Source of the DNA: Pseudofrankia saprophytica
GTDB lineage: Bacteria; Actinomycetota; Actinomycetes; Frankiales; Frankiaceae
Length of the DNA: 64,000 nt
Assembly: GCF_000235425.2 (NCBI RefSeq)
Contig: NZ_KI912267.1
Span: 1,415,290-1,479,289, forward strand
Direction of reading: 5' to 3'
In this document: positions 26,901 through 35,270 of the stretch, one piece after another
Layout: each line of letters starts with the position of its first letter
Position numbering within the stretch: the stretch's first letter is position 1
Notes under the pieces: model-generated
What the model was told of the DNA's origin: nothing
What the model saw: only the letters and a program-made list of their open reading frames with translations
The model's database searches: none
Made by a program: the position numbers and the translations under genes

Positions 26901-27548
26901 TTACTCGGCATCCGGGGCGGTGGTCCCGCCCGTGCCTGCGGATCCGAGGATCGGATTGGTTTCCATACCGCTTTCAAGCACCCTGAGGCCTTCGGAGATC
27001 GCGCTCGCCAGATCGCCACCGTTGAGGAACCAGTTCGTCTGGGCCGCCTGGATGACTCCACCCACGGCCCCGGCGAGCATCGTGGGCAACAGGGCGTCGG
27101 CGGGCAATCCCAAGCGAGAACGGAGGAAGTCGGCGGTCACCCTGTGCGTGTTGAGCTGAATGCCGCCAAGCACGCCGCGCAGTAGCGTGGGAGTAACCGC
27201 GATGACCGCTATCCAACGCCGAAGCCGTTCCGCATCCTCCGCGGCGAACTCCTCCTTGAGCGCGAGACGCAGGGAACGCATCGGCGGTTCGGTGGTGGAA
27301 CAGGCCGCGAGTCTTGCTCGGAGGGCTTTGCTCCGCCGCTCGATCCTCACCTGCAGGACGTCTTCCTTCGAGGGGAAGTAGCGGTAGAAGGTCCGGACGG
27401 AGATCTGCGCCTCCGCGGCGATCTCCTCGACCGTGGTCTCGATGAACCCACGCTGCTCGAAGAGCCTGAGCGCGACGCCCTCCAGCTCGGAGATCATCAT
27501 CTCGGAGCGCTGCTCACTCAGTCGCAGCGCAAGCGATTTGGACGCCAC
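26901..27548 (-). CDS. TetR-family transcriptional regulator
   Basis: 215 residues from GTG 27548 (GGGAGG upstream). The HTH is TTVEEIAAEAQISVRTFYRYFPSKED in the first 60 residues, very close to consensus. The C-terminal helical domain includes LRGVLGGIQLNTHRVTADFLRSR and ends in a Gly/Thr-rich tail. It follows the secreted hydrolase gene on the same strand but is separated from it by a strong hairpin, so it is probably its own unit. Its ligand and target are unknown; the hydrolase is the nearest candidate target. Confidence 0.9.
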   Translation of the reverse strand: MASKSLALRLSEQRSEMMISELEGVALRLFEQRGFIETTVEEIAAEAQISVRTFYRYFPSKEDVLQVRIERRSKALRARLAACSTTEPPMRSLRLALKEEFAAEDAERLRRWIAVIAVTPTLLRGVLGGIQLNTHRVTADFLRSRLGLPADALLPTMLAGAVGGVIQAAQTNWFLNGGDLASAISEGLRVLESGMETNPILGSAGTGGTTAPDAE

Positions 27549-27623: not shown

Positions 27624-29141
27624 CTACTTTCCGATCTGCGAGCGTATCGCGGCGTTCTCGAGCTCCGCCGCGTCAGCGGGGCGCAGGAAACCGTGGATGA
27701 CGCCGTCCGCCACCGACCGGCTCCATTGCGCGACGAACTGGCCGTGGTTCTTGTAAAGACCGGCGAGTTTGTCCGCGCTGAACGGCACGGTGGTGCCGAA
27801 GAGGCCGCACAGGACGGGCGTGTTCCCCACGCCACCGAGGGCCGCGATGGGGGCGTCGACCTGGGGGGACCGCACGCCGCCGAGGGTGTTGCCGTTCGCG
27901 TCCTTGGCGAACACCACCGGTGACGCGCTTGTGGTCTGTAGCAGCTGCCCGCGAGGGGGGTTCACGCGGTTCACGACCCACTGGTTCAACCAGTACACCG
28001 CCGCGTCGAGCACCCAGTGCGCGCCACCGGTGTTGACCGGGAGCGTGCACGTGCCAGCCGAGGTGACGGTCGGCGGGTTCTGCATGGCGGCCAGGCTCGC
28101 GATCGCGCCCTGCCCGTCGCCGGTGTCCGTCGGCCCGATCTGCAACCCGTAGTCGTCGAAGTGGGCCGTCCCCGCCACCTCCCACGCGCGGAATCGTCCT
28201 GTGTCCGGCTGGCGGGCGGTGAGGTTGCTGAAGACGACGTCCGTCTCGGTCTGGAAGACGAAGACGGGGACGTTGAGATCGTCACGGATCAGGACCGGGG
28301 AGGGCGATGGCACGACGGGGGTCAGCGCGGGCGGTGCCACCTGCGAGAGGGCCGCGCCGCTGGCAGCGCGACTGTGTACGAGGAACCCGTCATAGACGCG
28401 CGCGAGCGGGTGTACCCCGTCGATGTACGTGACAAGGCGAGCCGCCGACTGCGACTCTCCGGCCGCGATCAGCTTGCGCGGCTTCAGGCCGCCCAGCAGC
28501 TGCGCGGAGTTGCCGCGCAGGGCCTGTCCGGCCTGCGAGTAGATGTCGTACGAGTAGCTGTCACCGGGGTGGGACAGCGGCGCGTACCGCACCGGGTTTC
28601 CCGGGAGCGTCCCCGGGTTGTTGCCCTTCGCCGTCTGGACGCCGGTCCACTGCGCCGAGACCCCGACCCAGGCAAAGCCTTCCCGTACGAGCTCGTTGTG
28701 GGTCAACGTCCAGTCCGGCCCGGCGTCGGCCCCGCCGCTCACGTTGAGCCATTCGACGATGACCGTTCCGTTGAACTTCTTCGGGTCGACGGGGCGCCGG
28801 ACCACCGCACGGGTCGTGTAGGGCGCGGTTCCGTTCGGTGTCACGGCCCACTTGCCGTCACTCGTCAACGGGGTGGCGGAGGTGTAGCCGCTCGCGGTGC
28901 CCGACAGGAAGAACTCCGACTCCCGGTAGCCGACCTGGGCCAGGTCGAAGCTGGTGGAGAACATGAACTCCGCCGGAGTGCCCCCCGCCACCGGCCCGGT
29001 CACGGTCGGGGCCGGGGTCGGGGCTGGCTCGGCGGCCGCCGCCGTTCCCGCGCCCAGGAGCACGGCCGGTAACGCGGCGAGCGTCACCGCTAACGACGTT
29101 AATAACCCAGAAAAGACGGCATGGCGACGTTTCCTCATCCG
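27624..29141 (-). CDS. Secreted alpha/beta-hydrolase-domain protein (Abhydrolase_10 type)
   Basis: 505 residues from ATG 29141, which has GGGAG eight bases upstream; ATG 29159 is less likely. It has a Sec signal peptide: basic MRKRRHAVFSG, a hydrophobic core and an AAAAEPAP cleavage region near residue 37. The mature part matches the alpha/beta hydrolase domain family of about 450 residues: VIVEWLNVSGGADAGPDW, the nucleophile elbow GESQSAARL with Ser, YDGFLVHSRA, and a late GTAHFDDYG with the probable His. It should be an extracellular hydrolase for esters or lactones. The gene is isolated, with its own terminator downstream. Confidence 0.88.
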   Translation of the reverse strand, partial: RMRKRRHAVFSGLLTSLAVTLAALPAVLLGAGTAAAAEPAPTPAPTVTGPVAGGTPAEFMFSTSFDLAQVGYRESEFFLSGTASGYTSATPLTSDGKWAVTPNGTAPYTTRAVVRRPVDPKKFNGTVIVEWLNVSGGADAGPDWTLTHNELVREGFAWVGVSAQWTGVQTAKGNNPGTLPGNPVRYAPLSHPGDSYSYDIYSQAGQALRGNSAQLLGGLKPRKLIAAGESQSAARLVTYIDGVHPLARVYDGFLVHSRAASGAALSQVAPPALTPVVPSPSPVLIRDDLNVPVFVFQTETDVVFSNLTARQPDTGRFRAWEVAGTAHFDDYGLQIGPTDTGDGQGAIASLAAMQNPPTVTSAGTCTLPVNTGGAHWVLDAAVYWLNQWVVNRVNPPRGQLLQTTSASPVVFAKDANGNTLGGVRSPQVDAPIAALGGVGNTPVLCGLFGTTVPFSADKLAGLYKNHGQFVAQWSRSVADGVIHGFLRPADAAELENAAIRSQIGK

Positions 29142-29420
29142 ATTTCTCCCACCAGTCATCGCCCATCACTGCATTTCCGAGAGAAGCGACGACCAGTGCG
29201 GAATGGCCAGCGCTGCCGTTGCCACTCGCGGACGAAACGTGGATGAAACGGAACCGTAAGGTGTCGCCCATCCAATGTCAATGACTGACAGCGATGGCAC
29301 ATCGTGCCATGGCCGGCAGGACACGCCCTCGACGCGTCCTGGACGCGCCTGGGACCCACCCAGGACACGGAACGCGATCAAACGCGATCAGAGGAGTCCG
29401 ACCCACGGCGCCACCGGGTA
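29142..29420. other. Intergenic region upstream of the secreted hydrolase
   Basis: Between the hydrolase start and the acyltransferase operon's terminator. It contains the hydrolase promoter, not identified precisely. A perfect tandem pair of AACGCGATCA stands at 29371-29390, and there is a loose GACGCG repeat near 29332-29349. No gene is seen. Confidence 0.5.
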
Positions 29421-29448
29421 GGCCGATCCGGCTTTCGCCGGATCGGCC
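29421..29448 (-). terminator. Hairpin terminator of the dioxygenase-methyltransferase-acyltransferase set
   Basis: A perfect 12-bp stem, GGCCGATCCGGC with its complement, and loop TTTC, beginning 15 bp beyond the acyltransferase stop. Confidence 0.8.
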
Positions 29449-29463
29449 CGCCGTTGTGCCTGC

Positions 29464-31407
29464 TCAGGAGTGGTCGGCGGCAGGGGCCGGAGTAAGCAGC
29501 TCGTCGAGCTCGGCGAGGGCTTCGCGCAGTCGGTCGGCGAAGGCGTGCATTCCGGCGGCCACCGGGCGGGGGGTGCTCAGGTAGATGTTCAGCCGGTCCG
29601 GCAGCAGCACGTAGGCGATGCCGATGCACTTCCCGCTGGTCGACCCGAAGCCGAAGTACTCGATGTTCACCGACGGGGCGGAGCTGGTGCTCAGGTAGTC
29701 GTCCCGCATCACCAGCCAGCCCGGCGACTCGTAGAGCGGCGGCGCCGTGGGCGCACCGAGCTCGGCGCCGCGGCGACGCTGGATGAAGGCCAGCTCCCAG
29801 AGGTGCTGTTCGGGAGCGTCGCCGCGCTGGCACTCGCCGGCCCGGCGCACATGGGCGTCGGCCGCCGCGCGCAGCGCCGCCCGGCGAGTGGCCGGATCCG
29901 CCGCCGGATCGTTCATCGTCGCGACGAAGGTCAACACCTCCGGCGTGACGACTCGCATCGCCTCGGTGCGTCCGTACCGCCACTGCCGGGTGGCGATCGA
30001 CTCGTACGTCGCGCCGATCTGGCCCTTCGCCCGGTGGTGCGCGAGCTGGTAGGCCAGCTGCACCAGCGCGTCCGGCGAGATCCGCAGCGCCTTGGACCGG
30101 TCGGCGCCGTGCTCCGGGAACGACAGCGCCAGCGCCACGGTGTCCGCACCGAACTGGGCGAACGACTCCGACGCCGCCTGGATGTCCGCCCGCAGCGCCG
30201 CGTCGAGGACGAAGGAGACGGGCCGGACCGACGGGTGGCCGTGTTCCCGCGCACCCGAGCGGGCCGAGAGCTCGGCGGGCGGCGCCGAGAGCAGCGCGTC
30301 GACGAAGCTCAGGATGGTGGTGCCGTCCAGCCCGCAGTGCTCGACGTTGATCCCGGCACGCCCGTTCGGGAAGACGACGAACGAGACCGCCTTGTCGTAC
30401 CACCGGTTCGCGGCGCTGCCGTGCAGCAGCTGGTCACAGGTGGCCAGGGTGTCCGGCGGGACGACGTGATCCAGGCAGACGCAGAACAGCGCCCGCTCGA
30501 CCTCCTCCAGGGCGGCCACGTTCGCCGGATCGTGGGCGAGCAGTGCCGCCCGGCTCTGCGCCCACGCCGCGCGGGCCTTGGTGGTGAGGTGCCCGACCGC
30601 GGTGTCGTCCGGCGCCGGCGCGGGACCCGCGGCGGCCACCACGGCCGTGAGCCCGGCGGCGAGCTCCGGGAGGGTGTGCGGGGTGCCGTCCGGGCCGAGC
30701 ACGTCCAGCCGGAACAGCTGGCCGTGCCGGAACACCACGACGTGGCGGGCGTCCGACGGACCCGGCCACGCGGCGCTGTAGGGCACCCGGACGGTGTCCT
30801 GGTCGCGGCCGGGGATGCGGGTGGTGGAGAACAGGAACCGGTTCTGCACCATCGACTGCGGCTGGCCCCGCCGCAGCAGCGGTGGGATGCGCTCCGCGTC
30901 CAGCCGGATCTTGTAGTCGAGCGCGGCGGCGATCAGGCCCGCGGCCCGCTCGACCTGCGGGTCGCCGGCCGGGAGGTCGCCGACTGGAGAGTCGCCGGCC
31001 GGCGTCGCGGCGTCCCGGAACAGGAAGAAGAAGTTGGCGTTCAGCGCGATCCGGTCCCGCCGGCCCAGATAGCGGGCGGGCCAGAACTCGTCGAGCCAGC
31101 TGTGCACGCCGTCGCTCGCGTCGAACCGGGCGAGCTCGGCGTGCAGCGGCCGCCCCGGTCCGTCCGGCGCGAGGAAGTCGCCCACGGCCGCCTCGGTCGC
31201 GGCCAGCTGCTCCGCGGTGAGCAGCGGGGCACACCATTCCAGGAACCGTGCGCAGCTGTCCGCCAGGTCCGGTAGCGGGACTCGAGGCAGGCTGTCCTCG
31301 CTGTCGAAGGTGCCCACGGCGGGCTCCGTGCCCGCCCCGGGCCCCGTCTCGGCCGTGGGTGTGGCGGCGGTCGTGGCGGCGGTCTCGCGGCCGGTCTGGA
31401 CGGTCAT
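29464..31407 (-). CDS. Choline/carnitine O-acyltransferase-family protein
   Basis: 647 residues from ATG 31407, which has GAGGAAG nine bases upstream; ATG 31452 lacks a site. After about 35 low-complexity residues comes the family N-terminus SLPRVPLPDLADSCARFLEW. The catalytic His is H357 in GINVEHCGLDGTTI, where animal enzymes read EH(S/T)xxDG. YGRTEAMR (478-485) matches the Y-RTE substrate-carboxylate motif, and STSS (573-576) stands where STSQ is usual. The near-full family length argues for an active enzyme. It should move an acyl group between CoA and a hydroxyl of a small, probably zwitterionic, acceptor. This family is uncommon in actinobacteria. It is the last gene after a dioxygenase and a methyltransferase, which could make its acceptor. 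Confidence 0.88.
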   Translation of the reverse strand: MTVQTGRETAATTAATPTAETGPGAGTEPAVGTFDSEDSLPRVPLPDLADSCARFLEWCAPLLTAEQLAATEAAVGDFLAPDGPGRPLHAELARFDASDGVHSWLDEFWPARYLGRRDRIALNANFFFLFRDAATPAGDSPVGDLPAGDPQVERAAGLIAAALDYKIRLDAERIPPLLRRGQPQSMVQNRFLFSTTRIPGRDQDTVRVPYSAAWPGPSDARHVVVFRHGQLFRLDVLGPDGTPHTLPELAAGLTAVVAAAGPAPAPDDTAVGHLTTKARAAWAQSRAALLAHDPANVAALEEVERALFCVCLDHVVPPDTLATCDQLLHGSAANRWYDKAVSFVVFPNGRAGINVEHCGLDGTTILSFVDALLSAPPAELSARSGAREHGHPSVRPVSFVLDAALRADIQAASESFAQFGADTVALALSFPEHGADRSKALRISPDALVQLAYQLAHHRAKGQIGATYESIATRQWRYGRTEAMRVVTPEVLTFVATMNDPAADPATRRAALRAAADAHVRRAGECQRGDAPEQHLWELAFIQRRRGAELGAPTAPPLYESPGWLVMRDDYLSTSSAPSVNIEYFGFGSTSGKCIGIAYVLLPDRLNIYLSTPRPVAAGMHAFADRLREALAELDELLTPAPAADHS

Positions 31408-31503
31408 CCTGGTCGTCTTCCTCGTCGTGGTCGTGGATGGTGAGCCGATCATGACGCCAGTCGCGTCATCCCGGCGGTTGCCAGGCCGCCGCCCGTTCCG
31501 TGC

Positions 31504-32373
31504 TCACCACGATCGGATACCCGGCGAGAACTCGGGCGGACGGGAGATGAACAGCTGGGCGTACAGCGATCCCTCGGCCTCCAGCCCGCGCGGATCCACC
31601 CCGACCCCGCCGAGCGTCGTCAGCACCTGGTCCCGTTCCTGTGGCGAGGCGAACCGGCGCTGTTCGAACAGCCGGTCCACCGCCTCCGTCCGGTATCCGA
31701 ACCCGGCGAGGGTCTCGGCAATCGGGTCGAAGGGAAACATGCGCAGCGTGAAGTGCGCCATCCAGGGCAGAGCCGGCCCGCCGCGTCCCGCCGTCTCGTC
31801 GGGCCCGGGAGCCGGGTCCGGGCTGGCGGCCGCCGTCACGATCTGGGTGAGGGTCCGATCGGTGACGTAGCCGAGGCAGCCGGTGGAGATGACCAGATCC
31901 ACCCCGGCGAGGCGGGCCCGTTCCGATTCCGTGAGTTCGCGGGACTCCAGGTCCGCGTGCAGCGCGTCATCGAGGAACCCGGCGTCGAGGGCGTAGGCCA
32001 CCGCGGGACCGGAGACGTCGAGGCCAATCACCTCGATATCGGTGGCGCCCCCGCGGGCCGTTGCCAGCGCCCGGTCGCCGGCCACCAGCGCCGCCCGGCT
32101 TCGCGGGTGGGCGTAACGCTCGTACAGATCGTCCATCGCGACGTCGAGCTTCAGCAGCGCCGCGTTGATCCCGTAGGAGCATCCGACGTCAAGCACTCTC
32201 AGCCGCCGGTCCGGGCGGCTTTCCTGGCACTCGTCGATGACTTTGGCGAAGTACGGCTTGGCCAGCTGAGGTAACCGGTAGTCGAGTGCGCGCAGCGTGC
32301 GGAAGTAGGCACGCGGGTCGGGCTGGTTGTAGACGTGCTCGAGTGAAACCTTTCCGGTCGCGTCGAAGTCCAT
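31504..32373 (-). CDS. Class I SAM-dependent methyltransferase
   Basis: 289 residues from ATG 32373 with GAGAGGAG upstream; the longer frame (to 32490) is not needed. Motif I is VLDVGCSYGIN (60-70), motif II-like IEVIGLDVSGPA, and DLVISTGCLGYVTDRTL is the post-II/IV strand. The N-terminal KVSLEHVYNQPDPRAYF and the later PWMAHFTLRMFPFDPIAETL and QRRFASPQERDQVL blocks look like family-specific conserved regions. The acceptor atom is not deducible. The gene lies between a 2-oxoglutarate dioxygenase and a carnitine-acyltransferase homologue (51 bp to the latter). Methylation of an amino or carboxyl group of the same small molecule is a plausible, unproven role. Confidence 0.85.
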   Translation of the reverse strand: MDFDATGKVSLEHVYNQPDPRAYFRTLRALDYRLPQLAKPYFAKVIDECQESRPDRRLRVLDVGCSYGINAALLKLDVAMDDLYERYAHPRSRAALVAGDRALATARGGATDIEVIGLDVSGPAVAYALDAGFLDDALHADLESRELTESERARLAGVDLVISTGCLGYVTDRTLTQIVTAAASPDPAPGPDETAGRGGPALPWMAHFTLRMFPFDPIAETLAGFGYRTEAVDRLFEQRRFASPQERDQVLTTLGGVGVDPRGLEAEGSLYAQLFISRPPEFSPGIRSW

Positions 32374-32592
32374 GGTCGGTGCTCCTCTCGATACGCCCAG
32401 CGGCTGGGCGATCAGGGCGGGCATCGGTCCGGAATGCTCGGTCAGGAATGGGTTGGCGGGAATGAGCGGGCCGGAACGGGCGGGCTGCAATGGGCGGTGG
32501 AGTGCCCGTCGAAGGACGGAGGGCGGCGAACGGCGGCATCGACGCGGGGGCGCCCGCGCCGGCGGACCCCGGTGGTGCGACGCGGGCGGCGG

Positions 32593-33486
32593 TCAGTCGA
32601 GCAGCGCGTCCACCCGGACGGGCCGGTCGGCCGCCTTCTGGTGTTCCGGCAGCACCCGGCCGAACAGCTGCCTGGTCCGGGACAGGCTGCCGACCACGCC
32701 CGGCCGCGCGCTGTAGGCGAAGATCGCGCTGTGCCGTTGGGCCAGGCCGGTCACCCGGCTCACCCGATGCAGCGAGTAGCGACCGAGGAAGAGCTGGAGA
32801 TCTCCGGGCCGCAGGCGCAACCGCCGGATGAACCTGTCGCCTCGGCCGGCCAGCACGGCCGCCACGTCCTCGACGTTCTCCTCGGCCGCGGACCGGATCC
32901 CCGGGCAGTACTCGAACTCGCCACCCTCGGATTCCTGGGTCAGCAGACTCACCGCGAACTCGTTGGTGTCGAAATGCCAGGGATGCTCCCGCCCGGGAGC
33001 GACGATGTTGACGCACAGGCCCGCCAGCGGGTCCGCCAGTTCGTACACGGCGGGCAGCTCGAAACAGGCCGCGACGAATGCCTGGAAAGCGACGCTGGTG
33101 TAGAGCCGCTGGACGGCGTGGTCGGGTGGGATGCGGTCCCGGGCCACGAACGCGTTGCCCCGCGGCATGCTGACCCGCCCGGGATGGTCTGGCGGCAGCG
33201 GCGTCTCCGGCGCGATGTTGTACGCGTTCACCGTCTCGTCGCCGTAGTAGGCGAGCGGCGCCAGCGCCGCGCACTGGGTGCGCAGCCGTTCCAGCGCCTC
33301 CGGCCTGACGAATCCCGGAAGCACACAGCATCCGGACTCGGCCAGCTCCCGCCGGACACCCAGGACGAGCCCATTCCAGGCCGCGCTCCCCGGTGGCGCG
33401 AACAGCGGGTAGGACCCGGTGTTCACGACGGCCTCGACCGCCGTCGCCGTCGCGCGGTCGTCAATGACGGTCTCGGGCCGGGTCAA
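32593..33486 (-). CDS. 2-oxoglutarate/Fe(II) dioxygenase, BesD/HalD-like family
   Basis: 297 residues from TTG 33486, which has GGAGGG five bases upstream; the GTG codons at 33516 and 33513 have none. The metal site is H171-x-D173 in PWHFDTNEF with H240 in GRYSLHRVSRV, and an Arg follows in QRHSAIFAYSARPG for 2-oxoglutarate. VNIVAPGREHPWHFDTN, GGEFEYCPGIR and LRPGDLQLFLGRYSLHRV resemble the free-amino-acid halogenase family of BesD. Those halogenases have Gly in place of the Asp, and here Asp is kept, so hydroxylation is expected, not chlorination. It is first in a three-gene, same-strand set. The substrate is probably a small amino acid or derivative (inference). Confidence 0.85.
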   Translation of the reverse strand: MTRPETVIDDRATATAVEAVVNTGSYPLFAPPGSAAWNGLVLGVRRELAESGCCVLPGFVRPEALERLRTQCAALAPLAYYGDETVNAYNIAPETPLPPDHPGRVSMPRGNAFVARDRIPPDHAVQRLYTSVAFQAFVAACFELPAVYELADPLAGLCVNIVAPGREHPWHFDTNEFAVSLLTQESEGGEFEYCPGIRSAAEENVEDVAAVLAGRGDRFIRRLRLRPGDLQLFLGRYSLHRVSRVTGLAQRHSAIFAYSARPGVVGSLSRTRQLFGRVLPEHQKAADRPVRVDALLD

Positions 33487-34028
33487 GGGAATCCCTCCAT
33501 CTACCGTCCACACCACGCGCCGTCCGGGAAACCCGGCGCCTCGAAGGAACCCAGCACAGTTTTCCGGCCGGTATCCGCCGAACGTCCGGCAATGTGACAG
33601 GTAACACGACCGTCATCTCTCGGCCTCATGCCGGACCCGATCCCGCCCGCGGCGGCAAATGCGCAGGTAGAACGGGTCGCCAAGCGCGGATTCGTCGCGC
33701 GAGCGCGAGAGATGGTCCGCCCCAGCGGCCGAAGCATGATCGAAAGACGGCCCGGAGTCCTGGTCGGCGGCGATGACGAGCCGAACCCGGTCGCCGACCG
33801 TCCACGCGCCCACGACCATCCATGATCACCACAAGCGTATCGCCACGGTCGCGATGTGGCCGAATCCACGACCACGGCAACACGGAGGCAGCGATCTATC
33901 AGTCGCGCGCTTGCGGCAGGTTGGTACCAGCAGCTGCATGAAAATGGTAGCGATGACTGTGGCAGACTGGTACTCACACCCGTGTGGTGCCGGTAGCGTG
34001 GTCTCCGGCCGGTGGATCCGAGGTGGTT
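33487..34028. other. Intergenic region between dioxygenase and AAA ATPase
   Basis: About 540 bp between divergent genes. The open frames here are Arg-rich shadows without motifs. CACAC-cc-GTGTG at 33974-33985 is a short palindrome 44 bp before the ATPase start and may be an operator. The section 33830-33960 is noticeably less G+C rich than the flanks. Confidence 0.5.
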
Positions 34029-35270
34029 GTGGCCAGTTCATACCTCCCCCGGCTGGTGGACGCCCGGATCGGCGAGATGCTCTCGGAGCTGCCGGCGGTG
34101 CTGATCGTCGGGCCACGGGCGACAGGCAAGACCACCACGGCGGCACGGCATGCGCGGACCATGATCCGCCTGGACGAACCCGCCGAGGCGGTCGCCTTCC
34201 AGGCTGATCCCGACGCGGCGCTGCGCCAGTTTCCCGAACCTGTGCTGCTCGACGAGTGGCAGGCCGTTCCGGGTGTGCTGGGCGCAATCAAACGGACGGT
34301 GGATGTCAGCCCCAGGCCAGGACGATTCCTGGTCGCAGGTTCCGTGCGTGCCGACCTGCAGGCCGAGAACTGGCCCGGCACCGGCCGCCTAGTCCGGGTC
34401 GCGATGACCGGCCTGTCCATGCGCGAGATCGACGGACGGATCGACGGGCCCACATTCATCGACCGGATCGCCGACACCGGCCCGGACACGCTGCCCACCC
34501 CGGCCGACCCGCCCGACCTGCCCGGCTATCTCGAGCTGGCGCTGCGAAGCGGCTTCCCTGAACCCGCCCTGCGCCTCTCACCCGCCCGCCGCGAGGAATG
34601 GCTGGAAAGCTACCTCGACCAGCTCCTCACCCGTGACGTCGAACTCCTCGGTGAGTCCCGCGATCCTGACCGCCTACGCCGCTTCTTCGAGGTCCTGGCA
34701 TTGAACTCCGCCGGCATCGTCGCCAGCAAGACCATGTTCGAAGCAGCCAGGATCAACTCCAAGACCGCCGATGCCTATGAAGGCCTGTTCAAGAACCTGC
34801 TCGTCGTCGACAGCCTGCCCTCCTGGTGGACCAACCGCCTCAAGCGACTGGTCCAGGTCCCCAAGCGTTATCTCACCGACCCCGGACTCATCGGCGCCGC
34901 GCTGCGCGTCGATGTCCGTGCCGTCCTGCGCGACGGCGACCTTCTCGGCCGCATCCTCGACACCTTCGTTGTTGCCCAGCTGCGCACCGAGATCCCGGTC
35001 AGCGCCAGTCGCCCCCGCCTCTACCACCTGCGCCAGGAAGGTGGCCGCCACGAGATCGACATCCTCATCGAGCTCGGTGGCGGACGCGTCATCGGCCTTG
35101 AAGTCAAAGCCGACGCCGCACCCAACCGCGACGCCGGCCGCCATCTTGCCTGGCTCCGTGACGAACTCGACGACCGCTTCGTCGCCGGCCTCGTCCTTCA
35201 CACCGGCAAACGCACCTACCCGCTCGGCGCCAACATCACCGCCGCTCCCATCGCCACACTGTGGAGCTGA
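34029..35270 (+). CDS. AAA-family ATPase with C-terminal DUF4143 domain
   Basis: 413 residues from GTG 34029 (CCGAGGTG upstream). Walker A is IVGPRATGKTTTAARHA (about 26-42), Walker B PVLLDEWQAVP (about 73-83), and a sensor-like FLVAGSVRADLQ. The second half is DUF4143: YLDQLLTRDVELLGESRDPDRLRRFFEVLA, KTADAYEGLFKNLLVV, then the PD-(D/E)xK-like strand EIDILIELGGGRVIGLEVKA. Such ATPases are common single genes in bacteria, often in the accessory genome. The EIDILI…EVKA core is that of the restriction-nuclease fold, so nucleic-acid binding or cleavage is possible. Its target is unknown. No toxin/antitoxin or restriction partner lies beside it. Confidence 0.9.
   Translation: MASSYLPRLVDARIGEMLSELPAVLIVGPRATGKTTTAARHARTMIRLDEPAEAVAFQADPDAALRQFPEPVLLDEWQAVPGVLGAIKRTVDVSPRPGRFLVAGSVRADLQAENWPGTGRLVRVAMTGLSMREIDGRIDGPTFIDRIADTGPDTLPTPADPPDLPGYLELALRSGFPEPALRLSPARREEWLESYLDQLLTRDVELLGESRDPDRLRRFFEVLALNSAGIVASKTMFEAARINSKTADAYEGLFKNLLVVDSLPSWWTNRLKRLVQVPKRYLTDPGLIGAALRVDVRAVLRDGDLLGRILDTFVVAQLRTEIPVSASRPRLYHLRQEGGRHEIDILIELGGGRVIGLEVKADAAPNRDAGRHLAWLRDELDDRFVAGLVLHTGKRTYPLGANITAAPIATLWS

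Follow-up and report, generated by a model that had tools for sequence, protein, structure and literature searches.

A conserved dioxygenase, methyltransferase and acyltransferase gene trio in actinomycetes and the small-molecule pathway it may encode

The three genes and their proteins

The window analyzed here is a 64,000-nucleotide stretch of the Pseudofrankia saprophytica genome (contig NZ_KI912267.1, positions 1,415,290 to 1,479,289 of the forward strand). Open reading frame (ORF) and sequence reading place three genes on its minus strand at 29464-33486. In order of transcription, they encode a 2-oxoglutarate (2OG) dioxygenase (DIOX), a methyltransferase (MT), and a member of the choline/carnitine acyltransferase family (CAT). 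An initial annotation had described three same-strand genes closed by a hairpin and read them as a possible carnitine-ester-like tailoring cluster; the three minus-strand ORFs and the hairpin are both confirmed. The source genome measures 9.98 Mb, and one CAT gene was found in it.

DIOX (32593..33486, minus strand) is a 297-amino-acid Fe(II)/2OG dioxygenase with a BesD/HalD fold, assigned from its ORF, the Pfam model PF23169, and a predicted structure. Its TTG start codon stands behind a GGAGGG motif, with a same-frame GTG 30 bases upstream. MT (31504..32373, minus strand) is a class I S-adenosylmethionine-dependent methyltransferase of 289 amino acids containing the motif LDVGCSYG. CAT (29464..31452, minus strand) extends to at most 662 amino acids, with a catalytic histidine at H372 and an STS motif at 588-590; its start may instead be an inner ATG near 31407, which matches the ORF start of the relative at locus L061. 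The hairpin 3' of CAT (29420..29449, minus strand) has a 13-bp stem, a GAAA loop, and a fold z of -3.73. It is not a textbook terminator because it has no T-run, and terminator scoring made no intrinsic-terminator call on it, leaving it as a possible transcript end.

DIOX matches the Pfam HalD model (PF23169) at 35 bits against a cut-off of 26. All 47 aligned homologues match it at E 0.001, and 16 of the 47 also match the WelO5 model weakly. NCBIfam returned no match for DIOX, and a sequence search of solved structures gave weak matches (best E 0.01). The predicted model has a predicted local distance difference test (pLDDT) score of 90.7. Re-ranking the Foldseek top 1000 matches to this model places HalB, HalA, HalD, BesD, and the lysine hydroxylase Hydrox at ranks 1-11, ten of them at VIA Z 20.2-21.1 and one Hydrox entry at 17.7, followed by SnoK at 16.6. 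A DIOX profile also aligns with a five-sequence BesD-family alignment at 97% probability.

The iron ligands H171, D173, and H240 and the 2OG-binding arginine R251 are each conserved in 47/47 homologues. The codons of the HxD iron-binding motif, H171-F-D173, lie at 32968..32976 on the minus strand. Halogenases carry a glycine at the D173 position, and the corresponding motif of the Streptomyces cattleya protein assumed to be BesD is HWG. DIOX is assigned to the hydroxylase type because aspartate replaces this glycine, and halogenation was rejected on the same ground. The initial label of a BesD/HalD-like dioxygenase therefore holds for the fold, whereas the iron site is that of a hydroxylase and not of a halogenase.

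In BesD simulations, as described in PMC13244439, R77, H137, and W241 contact the carboxylate of lysine, and D239, D143, and E123 contact its amine. The two placeable carboxylate contacts appear to be kept in DIOX, R77 as R104 (45/47) and H137 as H168 (47/47), whereas the amine contacts E123 and D143 correspond to L154 (47/47) and T174 (46/47, with one serine); no position could be assigned to D239 or W241 in the alignment. Two of the three acidic amine contacts of the BesD-group lysine enzymes are thus replaced. Together, these residues are moderate evidence that the DIOX substrate carries a carboxylate but is not lysine.

The Pfam matches of MT are all to generic methyltransferase models and below cut-off, its one NCBIfam match falls far below cut-off, and none of 47 MT members matched an NCBIfam model at E 0.001. 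A sequence search of solved structures with MT gave no usable match. The predicted model (pLDDT 91.0) adopts the class I methyltransferase Rossmann fold, with VIA Z values up to 13.6. The fold neighbors of MT (METHYLTRANSFERASE) include sugar N-methyltransferases, C-methyltransferases, and RNA methyltransferases within 1.2 Z of each other, and the comparison of predicted folds does not separate N- from C-methyltransferases.

CAT matches PF00755 (Carn_acyltransf) at 515.6 bits over profile positions 1-573 of 574, in agreement with its earlier description as a full-length choline/carnitine acyltransferase homologue; NCBIfam gave no CAT match. Its nearest solved structures are carnitine palmitoyltransferase 2 (CPT2), carnitine acetyltransferase (CrAT), and choline acetyltransferase (ChAT). 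Conservation was assessed in an alignment of 79 CATs from trios, with counts taken over the rows that have a letter at a given position. The catalytic histidine of CAT (ACYLTRANSFERASE) and an aspartate at the CrAT D356 position are each present in 78/78 rows. Equivalents of the carnitine-site residues Tyr452 and Thr465 are kept in 78/78 and of Phe566 in 77/77, and each position of the STS motif is kept in 77/78.

In CrAT, Arg518 holds the carboxylate of carnitine, and ChAT has an asparagine at this position. The trio CATs have a glutamine there in 77/77 rows (Q549 in the window CAT, codon at 29806..29808 on the minus strand), which is neither the arginine of a carnitine acyltransferase proper nor the asparagine of ChAT. 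The equivalence comes from an alignment to 1nm8, in which chain positions 322 and 497, each plus 21, are taken to be His343 and Arg518 in CrAT numbering. Two CATs not linked to the other genes, from genomes G173 and G642, keep the arginine. Taken together, the kept residues and this substitution point to CAT-like chemistry on an acceptor that is probably not carnitine, and plain carnitine metabolism was dropped as an explanation because Gln549 stands in place of Arg518. M564 and D356 of CrAT limit acyl length. A bulky phenylalanine occupies the M564 position in 76/77 trio CATs, which suggests that CAT transfers a short acyl group.

Conservation and linkage in actinomycetes

Each of 35 Frankiaceae genomes was searched with all three proteins. 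The same 30 genomes carry all three genes, the same five lack all of them, and in 29 of the 30 the genes are contiguous, on one strand, and in the order DIOX-MT-CAT. In the remaining genome, G026, the trio is split. DIOX lies on one contig with a CAT and the decayed remains of an MT, and another contig holds an intact MT that shares 4 bases with a second CAT; between them, the two loci have a single intact copy each of DIOX and MT. The two G026 CATs are 76% identical, and the second has an asparagine at the first STS position. Among the 31 Frankiaceae CAT matches, five contain one stop each, none of them within the Pfam domain match.

The arrangement extends well beyond this family. A GTDB genome scan with DIOX returned 387 relatives, and among the best 80 loci, which were analyzed further, 74 have all three genes on a single strand in the order DIOX-MT-CAT, with Frankiaceae accounting for 13 of them. 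The genera include Frankia, Actinomadura, Amycolatopsis, Nocardia, Actinokineospora, Saccharopolyspora, Streptomyces, Kibdelosporangium, and others. Among the exceptions, L077 is the DIOX locus of G026, L105 stops at a contig edge, and L127 has the order DIOX-CAT-MT, the MT match in its genome holding an in-frame stop. In 12 of the 75 MT-bearing loci the MT and CAT genes have a 4-base overlap, given the start codons chosen by the script, and in eight they share one open frame of 876-941 codons. Such single frames are possible fusions but not proof of a fused protein. Contiguity in Frankiaceae (29/35 genomes) and in other actinomycete genera led to rejection of a local chance cluster, and with it of the proviso, raised with the initial annotation, that the genes might be adjacent only here.

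Searches seeded with the other two genes return to the same trio. Across a class sample of 393 genomes that includes all 35 Frankiaceae, PF00755 was found in 41 genomes (42 genes), namely 30 Frankiaceae and 11 of the 358 others. The 11 non-Frankiaceae genes comprise seven full trios, two DIOX-CAT pairs (G623 and G652), and the two divergent CATs of G173 and G642, which belong to one genus and have neither partner adjoining. PF00755 matched none of 14 control genomes, and a CAT plasmid search gave no match.

The MT profile, run against 286 genomes of the genus of G623, matched in 85 and separated its matches into two score groups, 24 at 413-469 bits and 70 at no more than 296. By genome, 24 carry the trio type, 64 carry a lower-scoring sister type (mostly 220-296 bits), and three carry both. 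Of the 24 high-scoring MTs, 23 sit in a trio, including that of G561, while none of the seven best of the 70 sister matches (loci L207-L213) has DIOX or CAT nearby. CAT and MT of the trio type thus hardly ever occur outside the trio, and none of the few sister CATs and MTs inspected is linked to it. An MT relative (~270 bits) elsewhere in G623 and G652 had been considered as supporting evidence and was dropped, given a base rate of ~22% in the genus.

In a broader phylum sample of 396 genomes, PF00755 was found in five (one of them a fragment), DIOX in 19, MT in 28, and the trio in three; DIOX and MT scoring mostly covered at most six candidates per genome, which makes the DIOX and MT counts lower bounds. 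Across 73 loci, the pairwise distances of the three proteins correlate with r 0.79, 0.84, and 0.88; the maxima under permutation are 0.19-0.23. Functional coupling of the three genes is likely, because the contiguity and order of the trio recur and because the CAT- and MT-seeded searches lead back to it; a shared substrate would fit this coupling.

All ORFs of at least 70 codons within 5 kb of the trio were clustered across the 80 loci, which fall into 14 taxon groups. No other ORF family occurs in more than 24/80 loci or in more than 3/14 taxon groups, and no assembly-line genes travel with the trio. In the window itself, a divergent gene upstream (33984-35270) encodes an AAA_14/DUF4143 ATPase by Pfam. 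Downstream lie genes for an Abhydrolase_10 protein whose start resembles a signal peptide by eye (27624-29159) and for a TetR regulator with an MftR-type C-terminal domain by Pfam (26901-27548); these two are probably a unit separate from the trio.

More distant relatives were seen in other settings. Distant MT relatives have no common neighbor. Distant DIOX relatives at L146:6484-7802, L147:2277-3604, and L148:5541-6956 directly adjoin a gene of 170-175 amino acids, which in L146 matches the formaldehyde-activating enzyme Fae and in L147 and L148 is related to it by BLAST. One possible reading of these Fae-linked 2OG oxygenases is that they release formaldehyde by demethylation. At L141:5806-8927, L143:6781-9371, and L145:7008-9093, distant DIOX relatives are followed by a BLAST-related gene whose L141 and L143 copies match metallopeptidase M24. 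The M24 peptidase and Fae-like neighbors offer no explanation for the trio.

A proposed pathway and its alternatives

The genes, their linkage, and the residue changes are observed, and the order of steps is put forward as a proposal. The favored reading, held with reasonable though far from complete confidence, is that the trio forms an operon in actinomycetes, dedicated to a pathway in which one small amino-acid-like molecule is hydroxylated, methylated, and acylated. Judging from its family and active site, DIOX would add a hydroxyl to an unactivated carbon in a free amino-acid-like compound that carries a carboxylate and is not lysine. MT would methylate the same compound on nitrogen, oxygen, or carbon, and CAT would esterify the newly formed hydroxyl with a short acyl group taken from CoA, using an acceptor site that lacks the carnitine carboxylate clamp. 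Because the trio is accompanied by neither transporter nor assembly-line genes, its substrate is likely to be a metabolite common in cells.

A more specific version assigns the operon to an undescribed natural-product or osmolyte pathway that many actinomycetes would share. A hydroxylated, methylated amino acid would be esterified by a CAT lineage that has departed from carnitine and choline toward a new alcohol, and the products would be O-acylated hydroxy-amino acids, N-methylated or methyl-esterified, that form a new class. This version is attractive but tentative, and we consider it somewhat more likely to be wrong than right.

Several observations weigh against a three-step pathway on a single molecule. 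Two Amycolatopsis loci (L107 and L118) and one Pseudonocardia locus (L131) carry DIOX and CAT with no MT match genome-wide, the L131 pair being divergently oriented; a strict three-step chain is therefore not universal. The genome G860 has a trio-type MT (1/24) with neither partner in the 7.5 kb examined. Distant DIOX relatives occur without CAT, and the trio is missing from 16 of the 19 DIOX-matched genomes of the phylum sample. The parallel divergence of the three proteins may mirror species descent alone, and the BesD residue equivalences rest on a profile alignment at 16% identity. The trio also has no recurrent transporter, ligase, or regulator gene within 5 kb in the 80 loci that would hint at the product.

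The loci lacking MT speak for a two-enzyme alternative, in which DIOX and CAT make and acylate an alcohol while MT serves a separate purpose, such as forming a carboxylate methyl ester or acting on another metabolite, and is only usually linked. Because MT can be missing in a few lineages, DIOX and CAT do seem to be the core of the pathway. The pairs of G623 and G652 also lack MT at the locus, and in G026 the intact MT lies with the second CAT on the other contig while the DIOX locus retains only a remnant. A methyl ester would moreover fit the loss of the carboxylate-binding arginine, and as speculation, such an ester on the substrate would explain that loss in CAT. MT nevertheless stands between DIOX and CAT in 74/80 loci and shares a frame with CAT in eight, and the high-scoring MT subfamily sits in the trio in 23/24 cases, although these come from one genus. 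A separate role for MT is thus unlikely, if still the strongest of the alternatives.

The reading of the initial annotation, a carnitine or hydroxy-betaine ester pathway whose product is an acylated hydroxy-betaine, requires a CAT acceptor with both a carboxylate and a trimethylammonium group. Its CAT-family part stands, at 515.6 bits, part of the carnitine site survives in the Tyr452, Thr465, and Phe566 equivalents, and a methyltransferase is present. The betaine part is weakened by the invariant glutamine in place of the arginine that clamps the carboxylate, an arginine that the two unlinked bacterial CATs keep, and by the two replaced lysine-amine contacts of BesD; the MT fold points to no trimethylammonium-making family in particular. 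Such a pathway now appears improbable. Modification of a macromolecule, with DIOX and MT acting on a protein or RNA and CAT either coincidental or acylating the modified residue, is more improbable still. PHD2, OGFOD1, and Tpa1 appear in the DIOX fold list at Z ~15, the related folds of PHD2 and Tpa1 being ones that act on a protein or RNA, and RNA methyltransferases are among the MT fold neighbors. The ten best BesD-group entries, however, score 20.2-21.1 (the eleventh 17.7), and the first enzyme outside that group reaches 16.6. The CAT-family enzymes known so far act on small acceptors, and the patchy distribution of the trio-type MT, 24/286 genomes in one genus, is unlike that of a housekeeping modification.

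Reading the trio as a dedicated small-molecule pathway gives a tractable target, with three enzymes, probably one molecule, and steps that can each be measured singly. No description of the operon was found by title and abstract among the papers listed in searches of the open-licence PubMed Central (PMC) literature. The conserved operon implies a widespread metabolite absent from the literature searched, and its product has probably not been described before. The CAT family is known mainly for the eukaryotic enzymes of carnitine and choline, and its members are rare in actinomycetes (41/393 genomes; 11/358 outside Frankiaceae). In Frankia, Actinomadura, Nocardia, Amycolatopsis, and Streptomyces, the operon joins one of them to a dedicated methyltransferase and to a hydroxylase that resembles enzymes acting on free amino acids.

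Comparison with known systems

In the beta-ethynylserine (bes) pathway of Streptomyces cattleya, BesD acts on a free amino acid, according to PMC8407142. The S. cattleya record taken here as the besD locus, which is unannotated and was chosen by organism and 51% identity to HalB, has a next ORF that by eye is neither MT nor CAT. This ORF is presumably besC.

The BesD/HalD family (BesD, HalA, HalB, HalD, and Hydrox), whose members act on free amino acids, is the closest relative of DIOX. The two share the Pfam HalD domain, the best fold match, the 2OG arginine, and both iron histidines, and two BesD residues that contact the carboxylate, R77 and H137 as numbered in PMC13244439, appear in DIOX as R104 and H168. 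DIOX differs from the BesD/HalD halogenases in its HxD rather than HxG motif and in the leucine and threonine or serine at the positions of E123 and D143, and it is 14-21% identical to its BesD/HalD fold matches.

The unlinked CATs of G173 and G642 also match PF00755, at 292 and 301 bits, and that of G642 is 28% identical to the window CAT. They differ from the trio CATs in keeping the carnitine arginine, in having a gap or glycine at the D356 position and an alanine at the M564 position, and in having no adjoining DIOX or MT; judged by these residues, they are possibly true longer-chain carnitine acyltransferases. The G642 and G173 genes lie at L176:5954-7741 and L177:6001-7704, respectively, in small genomes of 3.4-3.5 Mb, each beside an ORF of 843-845 amino acids.

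With carnitine acetyl- and palmitoyltransferases and choline acetyltransferase, CAT shares the full-length domain, the catalytic histidine, the STS motif, and what reads as a short-chain acyl pocket, with aspartate at D356 and phenylalanine at the M564 position. It departs from the carnitine enzymes in the glutamine at Arg518 and in its operon with a dioxygenase, and the change from arginine to glutamine provides a natural test of acceptor choice in the CAT family.

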